Shown here: positions 2,831 to 64,000 of the stretch, in pieces
How positions within the stretch are numbered: the stretch's first letter is position 1
Layout: each line of letters starts with the position of its first letter
DNA from: Ceratodon purpureus
Lineage: Eukaryota; Streptophyta; Bryopsida; Pseudoditrichales; Ditrichaceae
DNA: 64,000 nucleotides
Direction: 5' to 3'
NCBI GenBank assembly: GCA_014871385.1
Contig: CM026432.1
Location: forward strand, 9,416,825-9,480,824
Made by a program: the position numbers and the translations under genes
The notes under the pieces: model-generated
The model's input: only the letters and a program-made list of their open reading frames with translations
Databases searched by the model: none
What the model was told of the DNA's origin: nothing

Positions 2831-3852
2831 ATGGCTTCTGTGGATTCTGCGCCGGTGGTTGAGGCTGTGGTTATTGCGGAAGTGACTGCGGTTGCGACGC
2901 CGGTGAAGGAGATGAAGGCCAGGAAGGCGAAGGAACCGAAGGAGAAGAAGGAGAAGGCTGTGAAGGTGCCTAAGGAGAAGAAGGAGAAGGTTGTTAAGGA
3001 GAAGGTTGCGAAGGAGAAGGGGCCTAAGCCTGCTGCGTTGCATCCGTCATATCTCGTGGTGAGTTTTGTGGTGGGGGTTGTGGAGGTGGTGTTGTTGTGG
3101 TTGTGGTTGTGGTTGTGGGAGGTTGTTTGGGTGATGGAGGGTAGGGTTTTTTGAGTTGGGGTTTTTTTTTGGTGTGGTGGTGAGTCTGATGGTGGGGGAA
3201 ATTGCAGATGATTGTGGAGGCCATTGGTGCGTTGAAGGAGAGGACTGGGTCCAGCCAGTATGCCATTGCGAAGTACTTGGAGGATAAGTATAAGAGTGCT
3301 CTGCCGCCGAATTTCAGGAAGACGTTGACCGTGCAGCTGCGGAACCTGACCAAGGCGGAGAAGCTGGTGAAGGTGAAGAACTCGTTCAAGTTGTCTGAGG
3401 AGTTGAAGAAGCCCGCGAAGGCTGCGGGCGCTCCGAAGGCGGCAGTGAAGATTGCGCCGAAGGCGAAGGTTGTGAAGAAACCCTCGGCGGTGAAGACCAA
3501 GACTGTTGGAGCGAAGGCGAAGGCGCCTAGCGCAAAGGCTGCGAAGCCAGATGCGAAGGCGACGAAAGCGGCAAAGCCTAAGACTGTGAAGGCGAGTGCT
3601 CCAGCAGCTAAGAAGGCGAAGGTTGCAGCTCCTGCGAAGAAGGCTGCGCCGGTAGCGAAGAAGGCCGCACCAGCTGTGGCCAAGAAGCCCGCGGCACCGA
3701 GGAAGCCTCCGACGGTGAGGAAGATGGTGACGCCGAAGAAGGGTCCGAAGACTGTGAAGGCCGTGGGTGCCAAGGCGAAATCACCGAAGCCTGTGGCGAA
3801 GGCGAAGCCGGCGAAGGCTGCAAGTCCGGCTGCGAAGAAAGCGAAGAAGTGA
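2831..3852 (+). CDS. Linker histone H1, copy a (two exons)
   Basis: Linker histone, which binds nucleosomal linker DNA in the nucleus and compacts chromatin. Exons are 2831-3058 and 3208-3852, with a 149-bp GT-AG intron in phase 0; the product is about 290 residues. The start is the ATG followed by codons for ASVDS. Residues 1-69 are an acidic-then-lysine-rich N-tail. The H15 globular winged-helix domain spans about 70-145, with HPSYLVMIVEAIGALKERTG followed by SSQYAIAKYLEDKYK. The rest is a tail of Lys, Ala and Pro with many AKA and PKK motifs. The intron cuts the globular domain after HPSYLV, exactly as in copy b at 34389-35694. The domain signature is unmistakable, and the length is ordinary for plant H1. 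An E2F-type site upstream suggests S-phase expression. Confidence 0.93.
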
Positions 3853-4955: not shown

Positions 4956-6682
4956 CTACCTATGCTGAGGCGGACTTGAATGGGTCGCCTTCTTCCGGAC
5001 CAGCTCCACGAAAGTCGTGAGGGCTCGTTCTGAGGATCCTCCCTTTGCAACTGCTTCTCTTCCTGCCTTCTGGAAGTTTCTCGAGTTCGATCGGATCTCA
5101 TCGACCTCCATATTCGTCCCGTCTGGTGCCATGATCTGCCTCACCTTGAGCGCGACTTCCTCCTTCGGCACGACTGCGCTTCCGTCCCTGACCTGGCTCT
5201 CGAATTGAAGGCCGATTTTCCACACATGGGTGATGTAGCGGCAGTTCGTGTTCTGGTCATAGAATTGTGGCCATCCCAGCATCGGAACCCCACTCGAGAC
5301 GCTCTCGATGATGGAGTTCCAGCCGCAGTGGGTGAGGAAAGCCGCCACCGAGGGATGCGACAGCACTGCTGTTTGCGGCGCCCACGACACCAGCAGAGCG
5401 CGGTCTTTGGTCCGCTCCACGAATTCGGAGAAGATTCTCTCGAACTCCTTGTTCTCGCACATGTCGTCGATGAGGTCTGACCTCACCACCCATATGAATG
5501 CGTGCCCGCTTATCTCCAGGCCGCAGGCGAACTCTTGCATCTGCTCCACGGACATGGTTGCGATGCTACCGAAGGAGACGTAGAGAACCGAGTTGGGGCT
5601 TCGGGCATCGAGCCAGGACAAGCAGAGGTGGTCCTCATCCAAGAGGGCACTTCCAGCTCCGGCTATGGCCACCTCTTCAACTCCGTCGGCGGTGGTCGTC
5701 GAGTTCAAGATGAGAGGGCCCACAGCGAAGATGTTGGAATTCATGTCGCTCATGGCGTCGAGGACGTCACCTTCGAGATCGTGGAACGTGTTGAAGAGGA
5801 TGCAGTCGCACTCGGGCAGAAGCGGATTTGAAATTTGATAGAAGCGGTACCAGAAGGTATCGGGTTCGTGTGTGAGCAAGGGTGTTGGCAAGTCCTCCAC
5901 TTTCATGGTTGGTGATCCACCGGGAAGACATGTGAGTGGAGCTTGCCGAGCGGCAGCCTCTTCGGCACTCCGAGGTGGTCCAAGGATCATGGTGCGTGCA
6001 TCGAGGGACGGAGTGGGAGCGTGAGCTGGAGGAGGTGGTAACGGGAGAATCCGCGAAGACACGAAGGTAGGGAGGTGGAATTGACATTGTGTAAAAATGG
6101 CAGAGGGTGATGCGAATGCTACGACAGGAATGCCCAATTTCTTAGCTGCATTTTGAGCAGCCCAGAACCTGATATCACGGATCACGCATGTGATCGGAGA
6201 CTTGTGCAGCAGCTTGATGAAGAGCTCTTCAAACGCGGGTCCCATTTCCAACAACCCTGTGAGAAATGCAGTCGCATCACGAAGTCGGGGGTGATCGTCA
6301 GGAAACCCATCGGAGACCGAGACGAACTCGATGTCGTTGCTGCACATGTGTGGAAACTAGGTTACGATCTAGTAATCTTCCTCACGACATTGTGAAGTGG
6401 AAGGTGACGAACATCGCGGCACATGATATAGCTTGCGGTTCCCAAATTTACTTAAGGCTGTAGGAGAACGACTTACTCAGTTTGCTCGTTTTTGGAACGA
6501 GTTTGCATGAGTCGGTCATGGTTCTGTGTGGTGTTGACGAACGTGATGCGAAACCCACGTGCTACCAGTTTCTTCGCAAGCTGCAAGGATGGAGTGATGT
6601 GCCCTTGCGCAGGCAATGGGATGATGACGGCATGCAAGCCCTCGGTACTACCCTCGCTCCCTTTCCTATGTTCAACCACCAT
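4956..6682 (-). CDS. Family-1 UDP-glycosyltransferase A (two exons)
   Basis: Cytosolic plant GT1 enzyme that transfers a sugar from a UDP-sugar to a small acceptor. Exons are 6682-6477 and 6339-4956, with a 137-bp intron (GTAAGT...GCAG) in phase 2; the product is about 529 residues. The ATG at 6682 was chosen because the frame further upstream opens only with a non-ATG codon and the other two copies start at the same distance from the HAVIIPL motif. His28 in PAQGHITP is the likely catalytic base and Asp124 in CVIRD its partner. The 44-residue PSPG box is complete at about 388-431: it begins WAPQ, contains HCGWNS and ends DQ. The final Gln is typical of, but does not prove, UDP-glucose use. 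No signal peptide is seen, and the acceptor cannot be predicted. It is closest to copy C. Confidence 0.92.
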
Positions 6683-15094: not shown

Positions 15095-16425
15095 ATGGCT
15101 ACCGAAACAATGCTCACCGATTTTACGTGCACAAGTCTGCTTGTACCGTATCTGACTCCCATTGATATTGCGAGACTTGAATGTGTCTGTCGAGAGCTGC
15201 GAAATACATTGGACTCTGATTTAGTATGGGGACGATTTGTACCCAGATCAACTGCCAAGGTGGTGAGGCTCAATGATGAGCAAGCCCCAACGAAAAAGAG
15301 GATTTTCACAGTCCTGTGCAAGCCATTCCTGCTAGAAGAGACGCTGGTATGAAAATCTGTTTCGCATTTGTTTTGGCCATGTCAATCGATAAAGTGTGTG
15401 AGATTAACCGACATTACGCTCAATGGTTATATTGTTTCCATCTGATAGAAACTACAGGCTTAGTGAGACAAGCTTATGATTTCCCTCATTAGCGCTAAAC
15501 TGGAAGTCTTGTTGTTCGTTGCAGGCATACTGGTTGAATCCAGGCACAGGAGGGGTCTGTTGCAGTTTGGCAGCACGGGGTCTTGGAATTGATTGGGGAA
15601 GTGACAGGAGATACTGGAGCTGGGGTCCACAGAATGGTGCAAGGTATGTTTTCTTTAGATATAGTGTCATATAATTGTAAAGAGTTTCGATTGCAACTAC
15701 TTACATACAAACTAGTTAATGCATAAAAATCGTTCCTCTGAAACACCAATGTGATCTCTCCCAGGTTTCATTCAGCGTCTATTAGGTGTTAAAAAAACAA
15801 TGAACAATTTGAATTGATCTCCTTCAGGGATGAATTGGTCGTTATTATCTATATTGACTAATGCAACAAATGTGAAAATGTTTTCTCAAACAATTGCTGA
15901 GGTTTTGAGCCTTGATGGAGAGCTAATATGATGATGCTTTGGCACAGGTGGCCAGAGGTAGCATGTTTGGAAGAGGTGTGGTGGTTCCATGCAAGAGGAA
16001 ACATCAAATGTTTACTTCCCAAGGGGGCCTATACGTTGTCATGGCGTATTCAATACCGCAGGAAATGCTCTGGTTGGACTACTCTGCCCGTAACCTTTCG
16101 TTTGTCAATGAGCGATGGGTCTCAGGCAACTACCAGCCATCGCTATCTGGGTAATCGACTCAGGAATGGCCCCGACCAAAATAGTCTCGATGACCTTACC
16201 CCAGTTCGTCAGGTTGAACGTTGGTTAGAGTTTGACGTGGGTGAAGTAGTTGTCACCGATGAGGAGAAAGAGACTTCGTTGGAGTTTTCAATGAGGGAGA
16301 CTGCCTGTGGGACTCTGAAGAGCGGAGTAGTTCTGGATGGTGTTGTGTTGCGGCCTACTTCTTTAACAAGGGTTACTGGACGATACGGTAACTCATCTGG
16401 AAGATTTGTTGTTAAGCGGAGGTAA
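15095..16425 (+). CDS. F-box protein with PP2 (phloem protein 2) domain, three exons
   Basis: Probable substrate receptor of an SCF ubiquitin ligase. Its PP2 domain is a lectin-like fold that in some relatives binds N-glycans. Exons are 15095-15346, 15525-15643 and 15948-16425, all with GT...AG introns (phases 0 and 2), giving about 282 residues, which is normal for the family. The ATG at 15095 is the first in the frame. The F-box is at about 10-50 (SLLVPYLTPIDIARLECVCR, then LWGRFVP-like DLVWGRFVP). The PP2 domain follows: exon 2 supplies AYWLNPGTGGVCCSLAARGL with WSWGPQ, and exon 3 supplies EVACLEEVWWFHARGNI. The domain ends with VTDEEKETSLEFSMRETACG and GVVLDGVVLRP, the standard closing strands. 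It looks intact. The ubiquitination target and sugar ligand are unknown. Confidence 0.88.
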
Positions 16426-17298: not shown

Positions 17299-19025
17299 CT
17301 AGCAATGCTGTGGTGGACTCGAATGTTTCGCCTTACACTGGATCAGCTCCACGAACGCCGTCAAGGCTCTTTGTGAAGATCCACCTTTCGCAACTGCCTT
17401 CTTTGCTGCCTCCTGGAAGTTCCTCGAGTTCAACCGGATTGCATCAACCTCCATATCCGATCCCTCTACCGCCATGATCCGCTTCACTTTGTGCGCGACT
17501 TCCTCCTTCGCCACGACAGCATTGCCATCCCTGACCTGGCTCTCGAATCGAAGGCCGATTTTCCACACATGCGTAATGTAGTGGCAGTTCGTGTTCTGGT
17601 CAGCGATTCGTGGCCATGCCAGCATCGGAACTCCACCTGAGATGCTCTCGGTGACAGAGTTCCAGCCGCAGTGGGTGAGAAATGCAGCCACCGAGGGATG
17701 CGACAGGACTGCTATTTGCGGCACCCAAGGGACCAGCAGAGCGCGGTCTTTCGTCCGCACCACAAACTCAGAAAAGATCCTCTCAAACTCCTTGTCCTTG
17801 CACATGTCCTCGATGAGATCTGACCTCACCACCCACAAGAACGCGTGGCCGCTCATCTCCAGACCGCAGGCGAACTCTTGCATCTGCTCCAAGGACATAC
17901 TTGCTATGCTCCCGAAGGAAACGAACAGAACCGAGTCGGAGCTTCGGGCGTCGAGCCAGGACAAACAGACCCGGTCCTCTTCCCAAAGGCCACTTCCAGC
18001 TGGCGCCATGCCCACATCTTCGACCCCGGCGACAGTCGTTGTCGAGCTCAAGATGAGAGGCCCCACAGCGAAGATGTTAGCATTCAAGCCACTCATGGCA
18101 TCCAGGACATCACCCTCGAGGCCGTGAAACGAGTTGTACAGAACACAGTCACACTCAGGCAGCAGCGGACTCTGAGTTTCTAGAAACATCCGATGCCAGA
18201 AGCTGTCGATGTCGTGCGTGAGCAAGACCGGTGGCAAGTCCTCGACGCGCATAGTGGGCGATCCACCGGGAAGACATGTAAGAGGAGCTCGTCGAACAGC
18301 AGCCTCCTCATCACTTCTCGGTGGTCCAAGCGTCAAGTTCACTAGATCAAGCGACGGAGTGGGATCATGAGCTGGAGGAGGTGGTAACGGGAGAATCCCC
18401 GTGGATAAGAATGTCGATAAGTGGTAATTACATTGTGTAGAGATAGCAGAGGACGTCACTAATCCCACCACAGGAATGCCCAACTTCTTCCCAGCGTAAT
18501 GAACCGCCGAGAACCTACTGTCACGGATCACGCATGTGATCGAAGACTTCTGCAGGAGCTCCTGAAAGAGCTCCTCAAACACGGGTCCCATCTCCAACAA
18601 CCCGTTGCAAAACGCAACCGCATCCTGAAGCCGGTGCCCTTCACACAACCGGTCGGACACCGAGACGAACTCAATATGATCATCACTGCACATGCATCGA
18701 CCAGTATCAATCCAACCATCTTCCTCACAAGATCACCAGCACTAGTTTGTGAGCTCATCACTACCACATGACTCAAAGTTGCAGGAATGATATGACAAAC
18801 TTACTCAGGCTCCGAATTCTTGCACCGCGCTTGCATGAGTCGATCATGGTTATGTCTGGTGTTGACGAACGTGACGCGGAAGCCGAGCGCTGCCAGTTTC
18901 TTCGCAAGCTGCAAGGCTGGAGTGATGTGCCCTTGCAGAGGCAATGGGATGACGACGGCGTGCAAAGGCTTGTGTCCATCGTCTTCCTCCTGCTCCAGCA
19001 CCTGCTTGTCATGCTCTATCTTCAT
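17299..19025 (-). CDS. Family-1 UDP-glycosyltransferase B (two exons)
   Basis: Second member of the GT1 trio, a soluble UDP-sugar-dependent glycosyltransferase of unknown acceptor. Exons are 19025-18805 and 18685-17299, with a 119-bp GTAAGT...GCAG intron in phase 2 at the same codon as in copies A and C; about 535 residues. The start is a true ATG (MKIEHDK). The N-terminus is some 5-10 residues longer than in A and C because of an acidic insert (EQEEDDG). Likely catalytic His33 lies in PLQGHITP and Asp129 in CVIRD. The PSPG box is complete: [31 protein letters not shown], ending ADQ. Ala and Ile replace Gly and Phe seen in the boxes of A or C, and the loop after VSVSD lacks the DDHPRLRD found in both others, so B is the most diverged copy. 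Confidence 0.92.
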
Positions 19026-22974: not shown

Positions 22975-23520
22975 TCCCTCGCAAATAAGCTTAAAAGTTT
23001 AAAATATTCTCTTCTTAAATGAAGATTATTTGGGAATAGTATTGCACTTCGAAATGGTTTAGCGAGCAATTTTTTTGTAGCGGCGCAAAAAGCATTGCCA
23101 CTCAAAGGTTTAAGAGCAATTCTAGCTTTGTTGCAAGGAATATTGCCTAGCAACAATTTAACGAGCAATTTTTGCCATCTAGCGAGCGATATTATCCAGC
23201 AATAGCCCTCACAAATTACATCCAAATTTCAAATTCCTCACTAGTCTCAAAGGAGAGCACAAGCGAGGGGTATTGCCCATCAAAAGTTTGGCGAGCAATT
23301 GTTTTGCACTATGGCGGGGCATATAGCTTCATAAAAATTTCATGAGCAGTTTTTTGCTGAGTCACAAGCAGATATTATAGAAACTAAACTCACAGCAACA
23401 AAGTCTACAAAATACATACATAATCTATTTCCCCGAATACAAACTCGTCTACCTTCAAATCCTAAATTCCTTTCTGATTCAAATAGACAGCACCAGCAAA
23501 TGGTATTGCAAATCAAAGAA
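22975..23520 (+). repeat. Degenerate satellite array, segment 1
   Basis: About two to three diverged units of a family that recurs at 25966-28215 and 29766-30605. Each unit has the order CTAAATTCCT, then AGCACCGGCAA-like, then ATTGCACATCAAAG, then GCGAGCAATTGTTTTGC, then a second TTGACGAGCAATTTTTTG half, then GATATTG and CCTCGC. Spacing between successive CTAAATTCCT landmarks is mostly 170-190 bp, with some near 230. Confidence 0.65.
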
Positions 23521-23986
23521 CGCACTTCTCATCTTCAGTCTTAATCATAAAAACGCACTTCTCATCCTCAGTCTTAATCATAAAAACGCACTTCTCATCC
23601 TCAGTCTTAATCATAAAAACGCACTTCTCATCCTCAGTCTTAATCATAAAAACGCACTTCTCATCCTCAATCTTAATCATAAAAACGCACTTCTCAAAGT
23701 CAGCATGAACTTGTAGAACCTTCTTCAAATATTCTTCATAATTGGCATTGACCTATAAAAAATGAAACAATAATTTGACAAAATTTTTAAGACATAACTA
23801 AAAAATATACAAACTTTAATTTCAAACAATTACCTCAGATAAAGACTTTGATAACTTCTTATTTTGAAGTTTCAAATTATTAACTTTGGTTTCTAAATCA
23901 CGAGATCTTCTACAATGGTATGCTTTCGCAGTAAGTATTTTCTGAAATTGGCCCTCAAGTTTCTCCATTTTTTTTTTGGTGGTCAT
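23513..23986 (-). CDS. Unknown coiled-coil protein with in-frame 11-residue repeats (two exons)
   Basis: I do not recognise this protein. Reading from the ATG at 23986, exons are 23986-23834 and 23752-23513, joined across an 81-bp GTAATT...TATAG intron in phase 0, giving about 130 residues. The first exon is Lys/Leu/Glu-rich and likely coiled coil (EKLEGQFQKILTAKAY, then SRDLETKVNNLKLQNKKLSK). The second starts VNANYEEYLKKVLQVHADFE and passes into five copies of an 11-residue unit (EDEKCVFMIKT). The stop lies a few bases past the repeats, at the junction with the satellite DNA. The piggyBac relic lies directly upstream in opposite orientation, and a further coiled-coil-like piece occurs on the far side of it (25466-25661), so the original gene may have been longer and split. 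A pseudogene or transposon accessory gene is equally possible. Confidence 0.4.
23521..23704 (+). repeat. 33-bp minisatellite, five copies plus a partial
   Basis: The unit begins CGCACTTCTCATCCTCAGTC and is 33 bp long, so it preserves a reading frame. Five full copies (23521-23685) are followed by a partial one. Copies differ by at most one or two bases, so expansion is recent. On the minus strand it encodes repeated EDEKCVFMIKT. Confidence 0.92.
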
Positions 23987-34388: not shown

Positions 34389-35694
34389 TCACTTCTTCGC
34401 TTTCTTCGCAGCCGGAGTTGCAGCCTTCGCCGGTTTTGCTTTCGCCACAGACTTCGGTGATTTCGCCTTGGCACCCACGGCCTTCACAGTCTTCGGACCC
34501 TTCTTCGGCGTCACCATCTTCCTCACCGTCGGAGGCTTCCTCGGTGCCGCGGGCTTCTTGGCTACAACTGGCGCAGCCTTCTTCGCAGGGACTGCAGCTT
34601 TGACCTTCTTTGGTGCTGGCACAGCCTTCTTCGCAGGAGCTGCTGTCTTCGCCTTTTTAGCTGCTGGAGCACTCGCCTTCACCGTCTTAGGCTTCGCAAC
34701 TTTTGTTGCCTTCGCATCTGGCTTCTTCGCCTTTGCAGTCACTGCCTTGGGCTTCGTTGCAGCAGTTTTGGTCTTCGCCGCCGAGGGTTTCTTCGCCACC
34801 TTCGCTTTCGGCGCAACCTTCACAGCCGCTTTCGGAGCGCTCGGAGCCTTGGCCGCCTTCGCGGGCTTCGTCAACTCGTCAGACAACTTAAACGAGTTCT
34901 TCACCTTCACCAGCTTCTCCGCCTTGGTCAAGTTCCGCAGCTGCACGGTCAACGTCTTCTTAAAATTAGGCGGCAGAGCAGTCTTGTACTTATCCTCCAA
35001 GTACTTCGCAATGGCATACTGGCTGGACCCAGTCCTCTCCTTCAACGCGCCAATGGCTTCCACAATCATCTGCAAGCACGCACAGTATGTAATTCATCAG
35101 CACTGCACCAACACAACCCACCCCCACACAATGTCTAAAGAAAACACCACACACGCCTACAAATTGCCAAAAACGGAAGGACATGCACATCACCTAAACC
35201 CTCTCCCTCCCGTAAATTCTCCTGAACCCCATCCGCTCAGCCAGAAACCCCCATTGCTAACACTCCTCGGGCACGAACAACAACACAACACTCACACTAC
35301 ATACTCAAAATTCAACACAGAATTCCCATGCAACCATCCACCAACCAACCCCACCCTCTCCCCCCAATCCCACACACACACACACCCCAAACCACCCCCA
35401 CTTCTTGAACAATTCAAAGAAACTCACCACAAGATACGACGGATGCAACGCGGCAGCCTTCGGCGCCTTCTCCTTAACAACCTTCGCCTTCGGCTCCTTC
35501 ACCGTCTTCTCCTTCTTCTCCTTCACAACCTTCTCCTTCTTCTCCTTGGGCGTCTTCACAACCGCCTCCTTCTTCACCGCCTTCGCCTTCCGGCCCTTAG
35601 TCGCCTTCACCTCCGTAACCTCCTCCATCGCCTCCACCGCGTTCCCTTCAATCACCTCGTCCTCCTTCGGCGACCCCGAGTCGACAGACGCCAT
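34389..35694 (-). CDS. Linker histone H1, copy b (two exons)
   Basis: Second linker histone, a nuclear chromatin-compacting protein. Exons are 35694-35428 and 35069-34389, with a 358-bp GTGAGT...GCAG intron in phase 0 at the same codon as in copy a; about 315 residues. The start ATG encodes MASVDSGSPKEDE. The N-tail (about 82 residues) is acidic first, then rich in EKKEK repeats. The H15 globular domain runs HPSYLVMIVEAIGALKERTG and SSQYAIAKYLEDKYKTALPP, with an LSDELTKPAK boundary. The Lys/Ala/Pro tail is about 20 residues longer than in copy a. The globular domain is almost identical in the two copies, so they are paralogs from one duplication that included promoter and untranslated regions. 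The long antisense open frame here is composition-driven and not a gene. Confidence 0.93.
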
Positions 35695-56584: not shown

Positions 56585-58307
56585 ATGAAGATCGAGCGTG
56601 AGGAGGTGGATGGTTTGCACGCGGTGATTGTCCCGTTGGCTGCGCAGGGGCACATCACGCCGTGCTTGCAGCTCGCGAAGAAACTGGTTGCACATGGGTT
56701 CCGGATCACGTTTGTAAACACTGTACAGAACCATGAGCGGTTGATGAGAGCGCGGTCGAAGAATTCGGAGGTGGAGTAAGTTTGTTATGGTGCTGGAGCT
56801 TTGAGAGGGAGAGTTTCTGAGCTCATGGTTGAGATGGGTCATGTGCTGTGGATGTCATTGCAGTGTGTTGTTTGTTGTGAAGTGAGTGACGAATTATAAC
56901 CCTAGTGTTTGATATAACATGTGCAGTAATGACATCGAGTTCGTGTCGATCTCCGATGGGTTGCCGGACGATCACCCCCGACTTCGCGATGTGACTGCGT
57001 TCTGCGGGGCATTGTTAGAGATGGGACCTATGTTTGATGAGCTCTTTCGGAATTTGCTGCAGAAGGGTCCGATCACGTGTGTAATCCGTGATATGAGGTT
57101 TTCGGCAGCTCACGACGCAGCTAAGAAATTGGGCATTCCTGTGGTAGGATTTGTGACGCCCTCTGCCATTGCTGGGCAATGTTTCTTCCACCTGCTGACG
57201 TTCGTATCGGCGGGGCTTCTTCCGCTGCCACCTCCTCCAGCTCACGCTTCCACTCCGTCGCTCGATCCTGTGAACTTGTCGCTTGGACCGCCACGGAGTG
57301 ACGAGGAGGCTGCTGCTCGGCGAGCTCCACTCACATGTCTTCCCGGTGGATCACCAACTATGAAAGTTGGGGACTTGCCAACAAACATGCTCTCACACGA
57401 CCTTGATAGCTTCTGGTATCGCTTGTATCAAATCCAAAATCCTCTTCTGACCGACTGCGACTGCCTTATCTACAACACGTTTCACGCGTTGGAGAGTGAC
57501 GTCCTCGACTCTATGAGTGACATGAATTCCAACATCTTCGCCCTGGGGCCTCTCATTTTGAAGCTAACAACAGCTCTGGATGGAGTCGAAGAGGTGGCCA
57601 TAGCCGGAGCTGGAAGTGCCCTCTTGGATGAGGACCACCTCTGCTTGTCCTGGCTCGACGCCCAAAGCCCCAACTCGGTTCTCTACGTCTCCTTCGGGAG
57701 CATCGCAACCATGTCCGTGGAGCAGATGCAAGAGTTCGCCTGCGGCCTGGAGATGAGCGGGCACGCATTCATATGGGTGGTGAGGTCAGACCTCATCGAG
57801 GACATGTGCGAGAACAAGGAGTTCGAGAGAATCTTCTCCGAGTTCGTGGTGCGGACAAAAGACCGCGCTCTGCTGGTGCCCTGGGCGCCGCAAACAGCAG
57901 TGCTGTCGCATCCCTCGGTGGCGGCTTTCCTCACCCACTGCGGCTGGAACTCCATCATCGAGAGCGTCGCAAGTGGAGTTCCGATGCTGGGATGGCCGCG
58001 ATTCGCCGACCAGAGCACAAACTGCCACTACGTTGCGCACGTCTGGAACATCGGCCTTGACTTCCTGAGTGAGGTTAGGGGCGAAAGTGCAGTCGTGACG
58101 AAGGAGGAAGTCGCGCTCAAGGTGAGGCAGATCATGGCACCAGACGGGACGGACACGAAGGTTGATAACATCCGGTCGAACTCGCGGAACTTCCAGATGG
58201 AAGCAAGGAAGGCAGTTGCAAAAGGAGGATCCTCTCAAACAGCCCTGACGGAGTTCGTGGAGCTGGTCCAGAAGAAGGCGAAACAGAGTCCGTTGCAGGA
58301 TTCTTAG
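56585..58307 (+). CDS. Family-1 UDP-glycosyltransferase C (two exons)
   Basis: Third member of the GT1 trio, on the opposite strand to A and B. Exons are 56585-56775 and 56927-58307, with a 151-bp GTAAGT...GCAG intron in phase 2; about 523 residues. The start ATG encodes MKIEREEVDG and matches the start of copy B. Likely catalytic residues are His23 (AAQGHITP) and Asp119 (CVIRD). The PSPG box, about residues 383-426, is complete: [22 protein letters not shown], ending ADQ. It shares the NDIEFVS and DDHPRLRD blocks and most of the second exon with copy A, 50 kb away, so these two diverged later than B. No disabling change seen. Acceptor unknown. Confidence 0.92.
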
Positions 58308-58319
58308 AATTTGGTGCAT

Positions 58320-60640
58320 CTTTTTCCTTCATTCTTGGTGATTCTGATCATTCAAATCATTTGGGTGCATGTGTCAGCTGGAAGATGGCGTATGTCTGGT
58401 TCTTATTTGGGAAAAGGAATTATATCGAACTCCCCCATTCTCGAGCCAACTTATTTTGGGTCTATCAGCAGCGCATCAACCGTCCCATGTTGTGGAATCC
58501 TCAGGGGCGAGAACCTTGGTTTCGGAAACCGAGAATCCGCAGGCTGCAAGCCTGGAACTCAAAGGTCTCCTACATGATGGCTTTCCAGTAGTCATCGAAG
58601 TTGGAATCTTCGACACATGCGCCATCTGATTCCAGAATTGGTGCCTTGAAAGCAAAACTGCCTTCAATCTGCATTTAACTTCAGTACATATCGATTGCAT
58701 AAGCAGCGCATGTGGTTATGGCACCTTTAGTTTGCACATCTACGAGAAGCGAGTAATAAGCTTGGGTTATTAGGTTATGATTTGTAACTACCAGGACTTG
58801 TGTGGAGCCAGAGCGAGAAGCAGCAAGCTGATTCCAAGAGTAGGGTGAAGGATTAACGAGCCATCCAGTTTTGTTCTCTTGGGAGACTCCAATACACTCA
58901 CCATGGATCAATCAGGTATTGTACTAGAGCTTGTGTTTTATAAATCCTCCATCGTTGTAAAGTATGGTAGTGAAGGACATCTATGGTAGTGAAGGACATC
59001 TATGGTAGTGAAGGACATCTTCACAACAACATAGTGTCTTCTAAAAGGAACGGTATATCAAAGTCTGAAAGTATTGATGATCATGTAAGGCATCTTGTCA
59101 TTCTCTGTCGAAGAATGACACAACGAACACTTTACTTGTTCTGTTTAGAACAAGGCTAATCATACTCTACTGGTCCATATGGACAACGGTCGAAGTGTCT
59201 CTCATTTCCTTTGACCACCATAACCGTCATTCATAGGACACAAGGACTCAACCTTAAACTTCTTCCTGTGTCTCTCTGTATCTCGTAGGTCTTTGTGTTA
59301 TCTACCCTTATCTCTTGTGATCTGTGTCATTCGTATCTTCTTCAAGGCTGTCGTCACTTGAGTTTGACGGTGTTCAGGAATGATGGCACATTGGTCACTT
59401 CCATCACGCCAGGGGCTCCTTGCTACCTCAGTAGCATTCTCACAAGCTTTGGCGGTGGCGTTGCGGTCCACAAATATTCCTCCCATTCCCTTCTTTGCTT
59501 CCTGGACCATCGTCTCCATTGCTCGTATTCCAACTCTCATCTTGCTCTACACCATGTGAACCTTCTTCAGTTTGGGTCTCACATTCTTTATGTTGCAGTA
59601 ATGGAGACTGCCATTCTCCCCTTTCAAAATACAGTGAGAAGCCGAATGATACCGTAGTCTCTCTTCTTGGCGAACATTTGTTCAAACTTTATTGCTGGCA
59701 ACATAGACATTTTTGAAGTGGAGTGCGTAAAAACCAAGGAATGCCAACTTCCAAGTGTAGGACAAAGGAGCTTCAAATGTTTGAATTGTGGATATTCGCA
59801 CCCACTTGCAGATACATTGCCCTTGGGAAAGAAGTTCTACATGTAGAAATGCTGAAAAATGTTATATTGTACCTTATGCAATGAAATATCTGGTGACAAT
59901 TGGTTTTTAAAGAAATTAAGCTTCATCGTTTGTGTTATCTGATTTTCAAGATCTCTAATTGAATGCTTCGGATTGTAGATCCCGATGTCTAATGCATTCC
60001 TATATGTTTCCAAAAACTGAAATCCAGAAGCGATATTGAGTTAATTTGACATGTACCATCACCACAGTAGCCATTTAGAGTACTTCCTGGAATATCTTTT
60101 GACAGTTTACATCCAATGAGTCGACACAATTTACAAATTCCCTATATTTCACTGATATTTTCTTGATCTGATAGAATTGAAATGTAAAGCGTACTGTATT
60201 ATTTAACTTACTCTTCTTTGAACACGTTATCCTTGCACCCTGAAGAGATGCTCATCTCAAGATACTTGAGTGAGACTGGACATGGCTTTGTGAAAGAGCT
60301 TAATCTGCACGTCCTTATTTCAACTTGAGTGTGCCGTATCTAGAGATAACTGAATGCAAAACAGAGTTACTAGATAGCATCGGAAATCAGCAGTCCTTTA
60401 TCTTCAGAACACTGTCTTGAGACCTAGATTGTGAAGACTCACATTGCAACAGCTCATAATGAAAAGAAGACCTGAAACGTTATAGCAAATAACTCCGACT
60501 GACATTAATTAAACCTCACTAATAACCTAGTTAAGCAAGCAGAAATGTTGTGCACACCCACCTTCACACTTAGTTAAATACTCTTTTCCTCAAAATTTCA
60601 CATCTACTTTAAGTACTCAGCTCTGCAGCTGGAATTGGTG
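58320..60640. other. Intergenic DNA between glycosyltransferase C and the terpene synthase locus
   Basis: Moderate-GC DNA without a gene I can support. Frames at 59295-59685 on both strands lack family motifs. A zinc-knuckle-like CLNCG peptide near 59770 is incomplete. It could include scraps of a retroelement. Confidence 0.4.
58963..59019 (+). repeat. 19-bp tandem repeat, three copies
   Basis: TATGGTAGTGAAGGACATC is repeated three times without a mismatch. Confidence 0.92.
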
Positions 60641-60644
60641 TTCA

Positions 60645-61010
60645 ATTCACATCTCTAAGCTCTTAAAGGAGGGTACTCATGGTGCTTTGACAAGTTGTGC
60701 CTGGAAAGGATGTCAGACAGATTGAGTTCCTCTAAACCTTTTGCGTAGCAATGTCCAGTAAGTGCCTTCGATTCTTCATCCCCGGAGATGGCCATGGAAG
60801 CAAGGAGCAGAGGAAGCCTGCTTATCATGAAACTTAGCAGGAAGCTAGACAGATTTGACTACAAATTCTACATTTAGACTGAATGCAATTAAACTGACGA
60901 GAACAGTGCTTGAAGTGGAGGGAAAGGCAAGACATTGTTCGACCCAGAAGAGGACATGCACTGAGGATGAAGGAAGGCATGTATAGGAGGGGCACACTAC
61001 TGTGCAAAAG
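60645..61010 (-). pseudogene. MTPSL remnant lacking its catalytic core
   Basis: The left part (about 60645-60740) is similar to the 3' end of the adjacent terpene synthase (compare CACATCTCTAAGCTC with CACATCTCTCAGCTC, and GACAAG with the same spacing). The right part (about 60775-61010) aligns with its 5' end: GGAGATGGCCATGGAAGCAA against GGGGATGGCCAGGGAAGCAA, and AGCAGGAAGCTAGACAG against AGCAGGGAGCTGGACAG. The intervening roughly 900 bp, with both metal-binding motifs, are missing. It is therefore a tandem duplicate reduced by an internal deletion, in the same orientation, and disabled. Confidence 0.7.
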
Positions 61011-61200
61011 AATGAACTACATGTTGACCAATTATTGTTTACCAAGGACATTAAGTTGTAACCATTGCAACGTAAGATTGTCCTTGCATGACATGATCAT
61101 TCTCTTTAGAACTGATATCAAATACGATCTGCAATTGCAAAGTATCTGAAGTATTGCATCTAAAAACATACTGAACATGCTCGGAGAACAATATCAACTA

Positions 61201-62481
61201 TTACACGCCTTTAAAATGTTCAGCTTTAGCTCTAACAGGGATGTTCACATCTCTCAGCTCTGGGAAAGGGGACTCACGGAGCCGGTAGCGCTTGGACAAG
61301 CTGTGAAAGTAAAGAGTGCCAGACATGAATTCTTTCATACCCTGTACATACCGGTGTAAAACATATGCCTTCTGTTCGTCCTCCCACACGGGCAGATGAG
61401 TCTCCAGCTCCATGAAATCCCGAGCAATTGCATTGGTCAGGTTCACAGCTTTCCATGCAGCTTCAGGCAGTGACATGCTTTCACTTCTCATGAATACCAT
61501 GATCAAATTTCGCGAATGAGGTTCATCTTGCTCTTTGGAATACGAGTAAATATCGTTGAGGTAAGCATTGTAATACCAGAGGCACTTTGTTAGTTGTTGG
61601 ACTACAGGGTGCTCACGAATCTCAGCTGAAAGAAGGACATTGTTGCTGAGCTCAACACAAATATTACAAAGAGACCCGCCTGTGTTTCGTAGGCGCATTC
61701 TGGTGTAGGAATCCAAATCCATGACGTATTTGCAATGACCTTCTCCTTCCACATCGGCAGAGTAGCTCTCAAGGCTCGAGTCAAAATAGTCCAGGACCGC
61801 ATCTGCAAAATCGCTGAACCACTCTGGGTTGGATACTTCTCTCACGTCACGGCCAAGTTTCCATGTCAACTCCTGGATCGGAGTGGGGTTCGGCAGTGGC
61901 AATTCTTGCCGGAGGACTCCATTCAAACTGTGGAGATACTCTCGCATCCTGTCTGGGCTGCGCGAGAGGTCAATGCCGCTTTTCTCTCTGAGGATGTCAT
62001 TCTGCCCATCAAACATTATGTCGTCCACGAAGAGAACGAGAAGATAAATGGAAGAGACGATTCCCAAACTATCACAACGGACTGTCGAAGGGTGTACGAA
62101 ACTTGCCCATGCGACGCAGGTCTAGAAAATGTTAGAATCTAGCCAGTTGTACGACCAATGCTTCATGATGTGAGCGCAAGCTTCATCTGCATAGACGCTC
62201 TCTCGGCATGGGGGAAGGCCGGGGATGGCCAGGGAAGCAACAAGGGGAGGAAGCTCACTCTCATCAAACTCATCAGCAGGGAGCTGGACAGGTGGAACTG
62301 TATTTTCCAATCTGAGACTCGATGCGCACCAGTACTCGCCGCGAGAGCAGTGCTTCAAGTGGGGAGACATTAGGCAAGATTTTCTAAGCTTCAGATGCGT
62401 AGTCGTAGCAGGCAATGAGGCGGGGGAGAGGCAGCTTGTGTGACAAAGGAGCGACACACTGCTGTGAAAACGAAACGCCAT
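61201..62481 (-). pseudogene. Microbial-type terpene synthase-like (MTPSL) gene with one in-frame stop
   Basis: Class I terpene synthase of the MTPSL group, which ionises a prenyl diphosphate and cyclises it to a mono- or sesquiterpene. From the ATG at 62481 the frame is open for 119 codons, meets TAG at 62124-62122, then continues in the same frame to 61201; read through, it spans 426 codons, a normal MTPSL length. Before the stop is a leader-like N-terminus and KHWSYNW, usual in the alpha domain. After it come DDIMFD (about residues 153-158, metal-binding) and NDIYSYSKE (309-317, NSE motif), with RLRNTGG between and a KRYR near the end. No intron could remove the stop: the only GT-AG pair spans about 31 nt. 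So it looks like a recent nonsense allele, a sequencing error, or recoding. There are no other visible lesions. Confidence 0.85.
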
Positions 62482-62489
62482 TCTGACAC

Positions 62490-63850
62490 TGGTCGTTGTA
62501 CAACGTCAATTTCGAAGGATAGGAAGAACAAGCTTGGGTTGAAGGTTGCTCACTTGTGACTTGAAGGAAGATTGGAGGGATGATTGAAGTTGGTCTGATG
62601 GCGAATTTGTACATGCTCGGATTTGCTGCATATGTGCCTTTCCGGCAGTTCAGCATACATTGAATTTGTCACATTATAACTGTAAAAAACTCGATCGTAG
62701 TCACCGAATAATTTTAGAGCTTATCCTAGCTTCCGCGACGTCAAAACCGTTTTAGTTGCTTAGTTGTATACTCAAACATCACCAGGACTTTACATCACCA
62801 TGCATCACCTTACACCGTACATCTGCCCACTTGCGACTTGAAGGAAGAGTGTCCACGAGATTGGGACTCTTTTTCGTGAAGATCCAAAGTAGTGAATGAA
62901 GTGTTCGCCACTTTGGAGATGAGTCCAGAGAAGAGTCCAATACAGTGATGAAGTGTCTGCGAAGGCAGATTTATTTCGACGAGCAGAAGGTAGAGGCCCC
63001 GCGGGCCACGCTTCAGCCCGGGCAGGGCTGCCTCCGTTTCGAAGCCCCCACTCTCGCCAAGACTCCACCGACGCAGGACCCGCGACCTGACTTTACTTCC
63101 CCCGCCTCCGTCCGTCGCCTCCCCTCCGAGGCTCCGTCCCTCCCCCTCCTGTGTGCCCCCCCAACCCTCCTCCCTCCGAGGTCAACGTTCACCGTCTCCC
63201 TCCCCGTCACCCTAAGAGCATCGCCACGCTTGCACTGCAACGGGGAACTTCAACGGCCCTTGACGGGCCCGGCCTCAAAATGCGCCCCACCGCATCCTCT
63301 TCAACGGCATTCTTCAGCCAGGGCCCTCCAAATGCGAGACCCGGCACGGCCAACTACAGTGCGCGCGCTCCTCCCTGCAAGTGCAGAATTTTATTGTTTG
63401 ACCAAATCTTATCTGTTGACTCTGTCTGTGATAGGACTAAACCGCGTTGCAGTGGCAGACATGCTGTGCAAGGCTGGGGACACGCTCTGCCCACCCTCGC
63501 CACTAAGGGCGGGGCAAAAGAGAGGGTCCGCGGAGGCTGCCCCGCCCTCGCCCTGCCCGCACCCTCCCCCGCCTTGAGCCCCTACAACCGTGACTGGGCC
63601 TCCGCTCCCCGTTCAGGCCCTCCCGTTCCCCGTCATCGCCTTCGTCGCTTGGTCCAGTTCGTAGCTGGGGCTCGGGCTCGCAGGCAGCCGTCCCCCTTTG
63701 TTCACCCTCTCCGTTCCCGACGGTTCCCCACGTTCCTAAGCACCTAAAAAAATAAAAAAATAAACTGAATTCAATTGTACTATCCTGTCCCTATGGCGTA
63801 GCCGCAGTAGTTCCCTACGCCGGAACGGCGTCTTAGGGTTGATGACTCCT
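62490..63850. other. Upstream DNA and a GC-rich island
   Basis: The first 500 bp would contain the terpene synthase promoter; a short block (CACTTGTGACTTGAAGGAAG at about 62548) recurs with one change at about 62829. From 62990 to 63740 the DNA is strikingly GC-rich and open in several frames on both strands, but the peptides are Pro/Arg/Ala-rich with no family motif, so I call no gene. A TAAGAGCATC string at about 63213 resembles a PIF/Harbinger end, but no partner end was found. Confidence 0.4.
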
Positions 63851-63854
63851 TTGT

Positions 63855-64000
63855 CGAATTTTCTCCATCCTCTTTGGGTTTATGACATGTTTTGGTTAGT
63901 ATTTTGGGAACTAAACCCTAAACCCTAAAACCCTAAACCCTAAACCCTAAACCTAAAACCCAAAACATGTTATAAACCCAAAGAGGATGAAGAATATTCG
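63855..64000. repeat. Telomere-like repeats inside an inverted repeat
   Basis: About six CCCTAAA units with small irregularities lie at 63910-63956. They are flanked by 41-bp arms in inverted orientation (63855-63895 and 63960-64000) that match at all but about three or four positions, sharing CATCCTCTTTGGGTTTAT. The window ends at the right arm, so the structure may be longer. The repeat unit is the Arabidopsis-type plant telomere sequence, here interstitial or at a contig edge. Confidence 0.8.

Follow-up and report, generated by a model that had tools for sequence, protein, structure and literature searches.

The window, by which we mean the whole stretch of 64,000 nucleotides that was analysed, contains three related UDP-glycosyltransferase (UGT) genes (PF00201) at 4959-6476 (-), 17302-18804 (-) and 56776-58304 (+). 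Their short introns were inferred by motif, and the GTAAGT donors of these introns place an in-frame TAA where exon 1 ends. A pair of complete or partial linker histone H1 genes (PF00538) with similar sequences lies on opposite strands, at 3190-3849 (+) and 34392-35093 (-), and a Phloem protein 2 domain (PF14299, E 5.4e-24) is encoded at 15916-16422 (+). Scans for tRNAs and Rfam families returned nothing.

The minus strand carries a terpene synthase gene whose reading frame is interrupted by one stop codon. The frame runs for 119 codons from an ATG at 62481 to a TAG at 62122..62124, and then for 306 codons to a TAA at 61203-61201. The reading phase is unchanged across the TAG, and the 425 remaining codons hold no other stop or frameshift. 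This frame check agrees with the first-pass annotation, which had reported a single in-frame TAG with 119 codons before it and 306 after it.

The segment downstream of the stop (C part, 61201..62121, minus strand, 306 codons plus the TAA) encodes the catalytic part of a class I terpene synthase. PF19086 is its only Pfam match (E 2.9e-26), solved microbial structures are related to it from E 4.8e-11, and it scores 149 bits against a profile built from 12 bacterial relatives. The metal-binding motifs had been described as intact and were both recovered: DDIMFD (62008..62025, minus strand), a DDxxxD motif read directly from the sequence, and NDIYSYSKE (61531..61557, minus strand), an NSE motif that aligns with that of the relatives. 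A C-terminal RY is present as well. The replacement of DDxxD by DDxxxD is a variant described for MTPSLs (PMC6779861, PMC13098426); PMC6779861 reports these enzymes from nonseed plants and gives them as absent from seed plants, which points to a nonseed plant as the source of the DNA. The gene shares with the MTPSL genes of nonseed plants (Selaginella, mosses, liverworts, ferns and hornworts) the single alpha-domain PF19086 enzyme and the DDxxxD variant. It differs from them, as far as their published descriptions allow the comparison, in the in-frame TAG and in an apparent shortening at that place.

The segment upstream of the stop (N part, 62125..62481, minus strand) is less easily classified. 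Its gene frame is free of stops, where 5 and 8 occur in the alternative frames; an open frame of this kind would arise by chance in about 1% of cases. With a codon score trained on the three UGT exons and the C part, the gene frame was the best of the three in 6 scoring windows starting from 62340 to 62190, with only a small margin over frame 1 in three of them, and was not the best in those starting from 62490 to 62370. In addition, the ATG at 62481 and its surroundings recur in a relic copy of the gene described below, with similarity beginning 27 bases upstream of the ATG. Open frame, codon score and recurrence suggest that the N part, or at least its second half, probably codes for protein. 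The N part comprises perhaps a plastid transit peptide, which its first residues could form, and then the start of the catalytic domain; the moss protein PcMTPSL1 has 440 residues, of which 113 form a putative transit peptide (PMC13098426). No Pfam domain was found in the N part and no match among plasmid records, and the search against solved structures yielded just two proteins, one of them ribosomal S10, at E 0.21 or higher. Structure prediction for the read-through protein alone gave a mean pLDDT of 34.0. A reading of 62354-62166 in another frame, which recalls an N-terminal motif, was rejected: it scored 2.1 bits, while segments elsewhere reached 7.1 among 2059, and joining it at a donor at 62258 gained 0.1 bit.

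The spacing around the stop was compared with that of 12 relatives, all bacterial, taken from 11 of 28 matched plasmid records and 1 of 2 genome loci. The plasmid records H5 and H27 and 15 Streptomyces clavuligerus rows (H8, H10-H23) were left out, as was genome locus L001, where the gene is cut off at the end of the locus; no relative was confirmed in the viral contigs searched. Spacings of the relatives come from an alignment of the relatives alone, and that of the window gene from the same columns in a joint alignment; a pairwise alignment (A1) was misaligned in the N part and was not used. From the Asp column of the PHVDE of L002 to a conserved Pro there are 38-41 residues in 12/12 relatives against 32 in the window gene, a shortfall of about 7 residues at the TAG, measured from an anchor column that is poorly conserved (Asp in 3/12 relatives). 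The distance from Trp to Pro is 29-32 residues in all 12 relatives (30 in 9 of them); in the window gene it is 18, or 22 when the other Trp is taken, so that the shortfall is 8 to 12 residues when measured from either Trp. Between a farther anchor on the N side and the DD motif the gene has 66 residues; one relative has 65 and the remaining 11 have 69-78, which leaves the gene only about 4 residues short.

The profile of the relatives also failed to recognise this region. The last 49 residues before the stop were matched as well by 169/500 shuffles, and the full 119 residues by 91/500. When relatives were left out in turn and their corresponding 49 residues scored, no shuffle out of 200 did as well in 10/12 cases, and 4 and 2 did in the other two. 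When they were cut just after the Trp, the count was 0/200 in 9/12 cases and 1, 6 and 50 of 200 in the rest. Profile failure is thus not unique to this gene, since relatives cut in this way sometimes fail too. Taken together, short spacing and lack of recognition suggest that the N part, by the yardstick of bacterial relatives, is not an intact terpene synthase N-terminus, either because residues are missing or because the plant lineage has strongly diverged here. The description of the gene as intact apart from its stop is therefore doubtful.

These comparisons bear on a rival account of the locus, a plain recent nonsense point mutation in an otherwise whole gene whose short spacing is normal for the plant lineage. 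The kept phase and the 425 other open codons are what such a mutation would leave, the shortfall from the farther anchor is slight, and the N part may be diverged and not damaged. However, the nearer anchors lie farther apart in every one of the 12 bacterial relatives, and a point mutation leaves unexplained the sequence context described next; we consider it possible but rather unlikely.

The TAG lies at the end of a stretch, CTAGATTCTAACATTTTCTAG (62122..62142, minus strand), that resembles the 3' end of an intron, in phase 0 before ACC. An acceptor-like context was defined, after the site had been seen, as at least 9 pyrimidines of 12, 6 T, a pyrimidine before the AG and a CTRAC within 45 bases. 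Under this post hoc definition it was shown by 1/88 AGs in the gene, 0/261 in the three UGT exons, and window-wide by 6/3647 AGs on the minus strand and 0/3436 on the plus strand. Among 21-nt windows of the gene, 26/1260 are as AT-rich as 62122..62142. The CTAAC at the TAG sits closer to the AG than is usual. The inferred introns of the three UGT genes (137, 119 and 151 nt, with GTAAGT donors), which served as the comparison set, end instead in ATGTGCAG.

An intron that could remove the stop was sought by enumerating every frame-keeping GT/GC-AG intron of 20-1000 nt between the ATG at 62481 and the TAA. There were 850 candidates touching the stop, and none kept both the second Trp of WSYNW and the conserved Pro, although two (51 and 42 nt) kept the first Trp and the Pro. 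For the sequence shown, the statement of the first-pass annotation that no plausible intron removes the stop holds. Nor does this sequence contain a usable splice donor for the intron-end-like stretch. Published MTPSL genes have few introns (PMC7826640), mostly none or one, with one in the moss gene SuMTPSL2, according to the account of MTPSL introns in PMC11579073, which does not state the position of that intron; for Selaginella MTPSLs PMC6779861 gives 0 to 7. No ancestral intron at this place was seen in any of the relatives.

The same context could mean that the TAG is the true end of an intron in an intact gene, with the N part intronic and the 5' exon lying beyond 64000 or unrecognisable in 62125-64000. 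The phase 0 acceptor-like context, the failure of the relatives' profile on the N part and the end of the window 1.5 kb upstream would agree with this, and the sole strong donor-like site found upstream, at 62813, lies 692 nt from the acceptor. As an intron, however, the N part would be open at a chance of about 1% and coding-like over part of its length, and its similarity to the relic (70%) is close to that of the C part (71%). Alternative upstream exons also gave nothing above noise: of 1873 possible ends in 62125-63997, 1222 were scored, those with fewer than 12 open codons being skipped, and when fused in phase 0 to the C part they reached at best 7.2 bits (at non-GT sites) and 5.3 at a GT. 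An intact gene with its first exon elsewhere appears quite unlikely.

Just downstream of the gene lies a degenerate tandem copy, which was absent from the first-pass annotation. Its 5' piece (60782..61050, minus strand) matches the gene at 62508-62219 with 70% identity over 264 aligned bases (alignment score 141, where 200 shuffles reached at most 41), and its 3' piece (60590..60790, minus strand) matches 61398-61194 with 71% over 190 aligned bases (score 98, where 200 shuffles reached at most 36). The two pieces are joined, with about 820 bases of the middle missing. No counterpart of 62218-62125 or of 62121-61399 of the gene was found in the relic. The similarity does not extend into the 5' or the 3' flank, and beyond the relic no further intact copies are found within the window. 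Over 454 aligned bases the relic shows 19 alignment gaps relative to the gene, 10 of them frame-breaking. Gene and relic differ at 54/150 third codon positions of the gene's frame against 80/304 of the other positions (p 0.038), an excess that would be expected if the TAG-bearing gene had been under selection for part of the time since duplication. The gene shows two features of a duplicated (non-processed) pseudogene: a disabled frame, with an in-frame TAG and 0/850 introns keeping the second Trp and the Pro, and a related copy nearby (the relic at 61050-60590).

The lack of further damage can be turned into an upper limit on age. Under neutrality, and for assumed indel/substitution ratios of 0.05-0.15, some 93-188 further stops or frameshifts per unit divergence would be expected over the 425 codons. 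Finding none puts the divergence since loss below about 0.032-0.016 substitutions per site (95%; ratios 0.05 to 0.15). This agrees with a recent loss, and no less with an assembly error or with a gene that is in use. Of the earlier proposal of a very recent nonsense allele, the recency is supported by the absence of other lesions in 425 codons, while neither a deletion scar nor an intron end was among the options set beside it, and the tandem relic did not figure there either.

An assembly or base-calling error, by which the genome would have a sense codon here or a stretch would be missing from the assembly, would account for a single lesion amid 425 other open codons. Against it, the sequence bears no sign of error and no N, and the tandem relic shows that loss does occur at this locus. 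We regard such an error as very doubtful.

A working gene decoded by stop-codon readthrough or nuclear transcript editing, both raised by the first-pass annotation, would explain why the frame stays open beyond the stop and keeps both metal motifs. A recent loss would leave the frame just as intact, and such a frame is no evidence for recoding because the loss can be recent. The stop is followed by ACC, and UAG then ACC is not known as a leaky stop context. The 120 bases downstream fold no better than shuffled sequences (z 0.16; 116/200 shuffles fold as well), so that neither a leaky context nor a stimulatory downstream structure, the marks of programmed readthrough, was found. The editing that removes stop codons in plants is known as an organellar process. 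Both proposals are left without support, and continued function through either is extremely improbable. Should transcripts and peptides show that the gene is alive, it would offer a rare example of a nuclear gene of a plant that is recoded; that the nuclear message for a plastid-targeted terpene synthase is read beyond its UAG by either route, with the dose of enzyme set by the recoding, is hardly credible.

The reading that we prefer, with moderate confidence, is that an MTPSL copy, one of a tandem pair in decay, was inactivated recently, and that the TAG marks a deletion scar, possibly across an exon-intron boundary. The downstream relic would be long dead, and the TAG-bearing copy would have been kept by selection until recently. 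A deletion may then have removed most of an intron together with its splice donor and the last part of exon 1, so that just the final bases of the intron, which end in TAG, were left and would now be read as codons. The former intron at this site is inferred; CTAGATTCTAACATTTTCTAG is read as its possible remnant, with the donor deleted, because the stretch has an acceptor-like context and no working donor. The copy would now most likely be null, presumably yielding no working enzyme.

Several sequence features are consistent with a deletion scar, namely the short spacing, the unrecognised N part, the intron-end-like context, the 0/850 introns, the decayed neighbour and the third-position excess in the gene-relic differences (p 0.038). 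An intron would not be out of place in a family whose published genes mostly have none or one, with one in SuMTPSL2 (PMC11579073). On the other side, the comparison set is entirely bacterial and the plant lineage may be shorter or diverged here; the farther-anchor shortfall is about 4, the nearer anchor column is Asp in 3/12 relatives and profile failure is not unique; and the acceptor criteria were post hoc, with the UGT introns ending in ATGTGCAG instead.

Premature stops or frameshifts are known from plant terpene synthase families, in full-length genes too, with 3/17 full-length mint TPSs affected (PMC6681836). The present gene resembles such pseudogenes in carrying a premature stop. It is unlike them in being an MTPSL and not a typical plant TPS, and in a lesion that may include an intron end. 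If the deletion scar is right, the locus would be a routine gene loss in a plant terpene family. It would also advise caution: where a frame appears intact but for one stop, that stop can mark a deletion scar or what is left of a splice site, which shows only when spacing is compared with relatives and the adjoining sequence is inspected.

Some repeats were also observed. A 24-base stretch, CTTCCTTCAAGTCRCAAGTGRGCA, seen by eye, occurs twice upstream of the terpene synthase gene, at 62824-62847 and 62547-62570 (-), and a tandem array at 23511-23696 holds 5.7 copies of a 33-base unit, 97% matching. A telomere-type CTAAACC array (63911-63966), within 63855-64000, is flanked by two inverted repeat arms (63855-63895 and 63960-64000) that measure 41 nt each and are 93% complementary to one another, and array and arms together are perhaps a mobile element or a hairpin.
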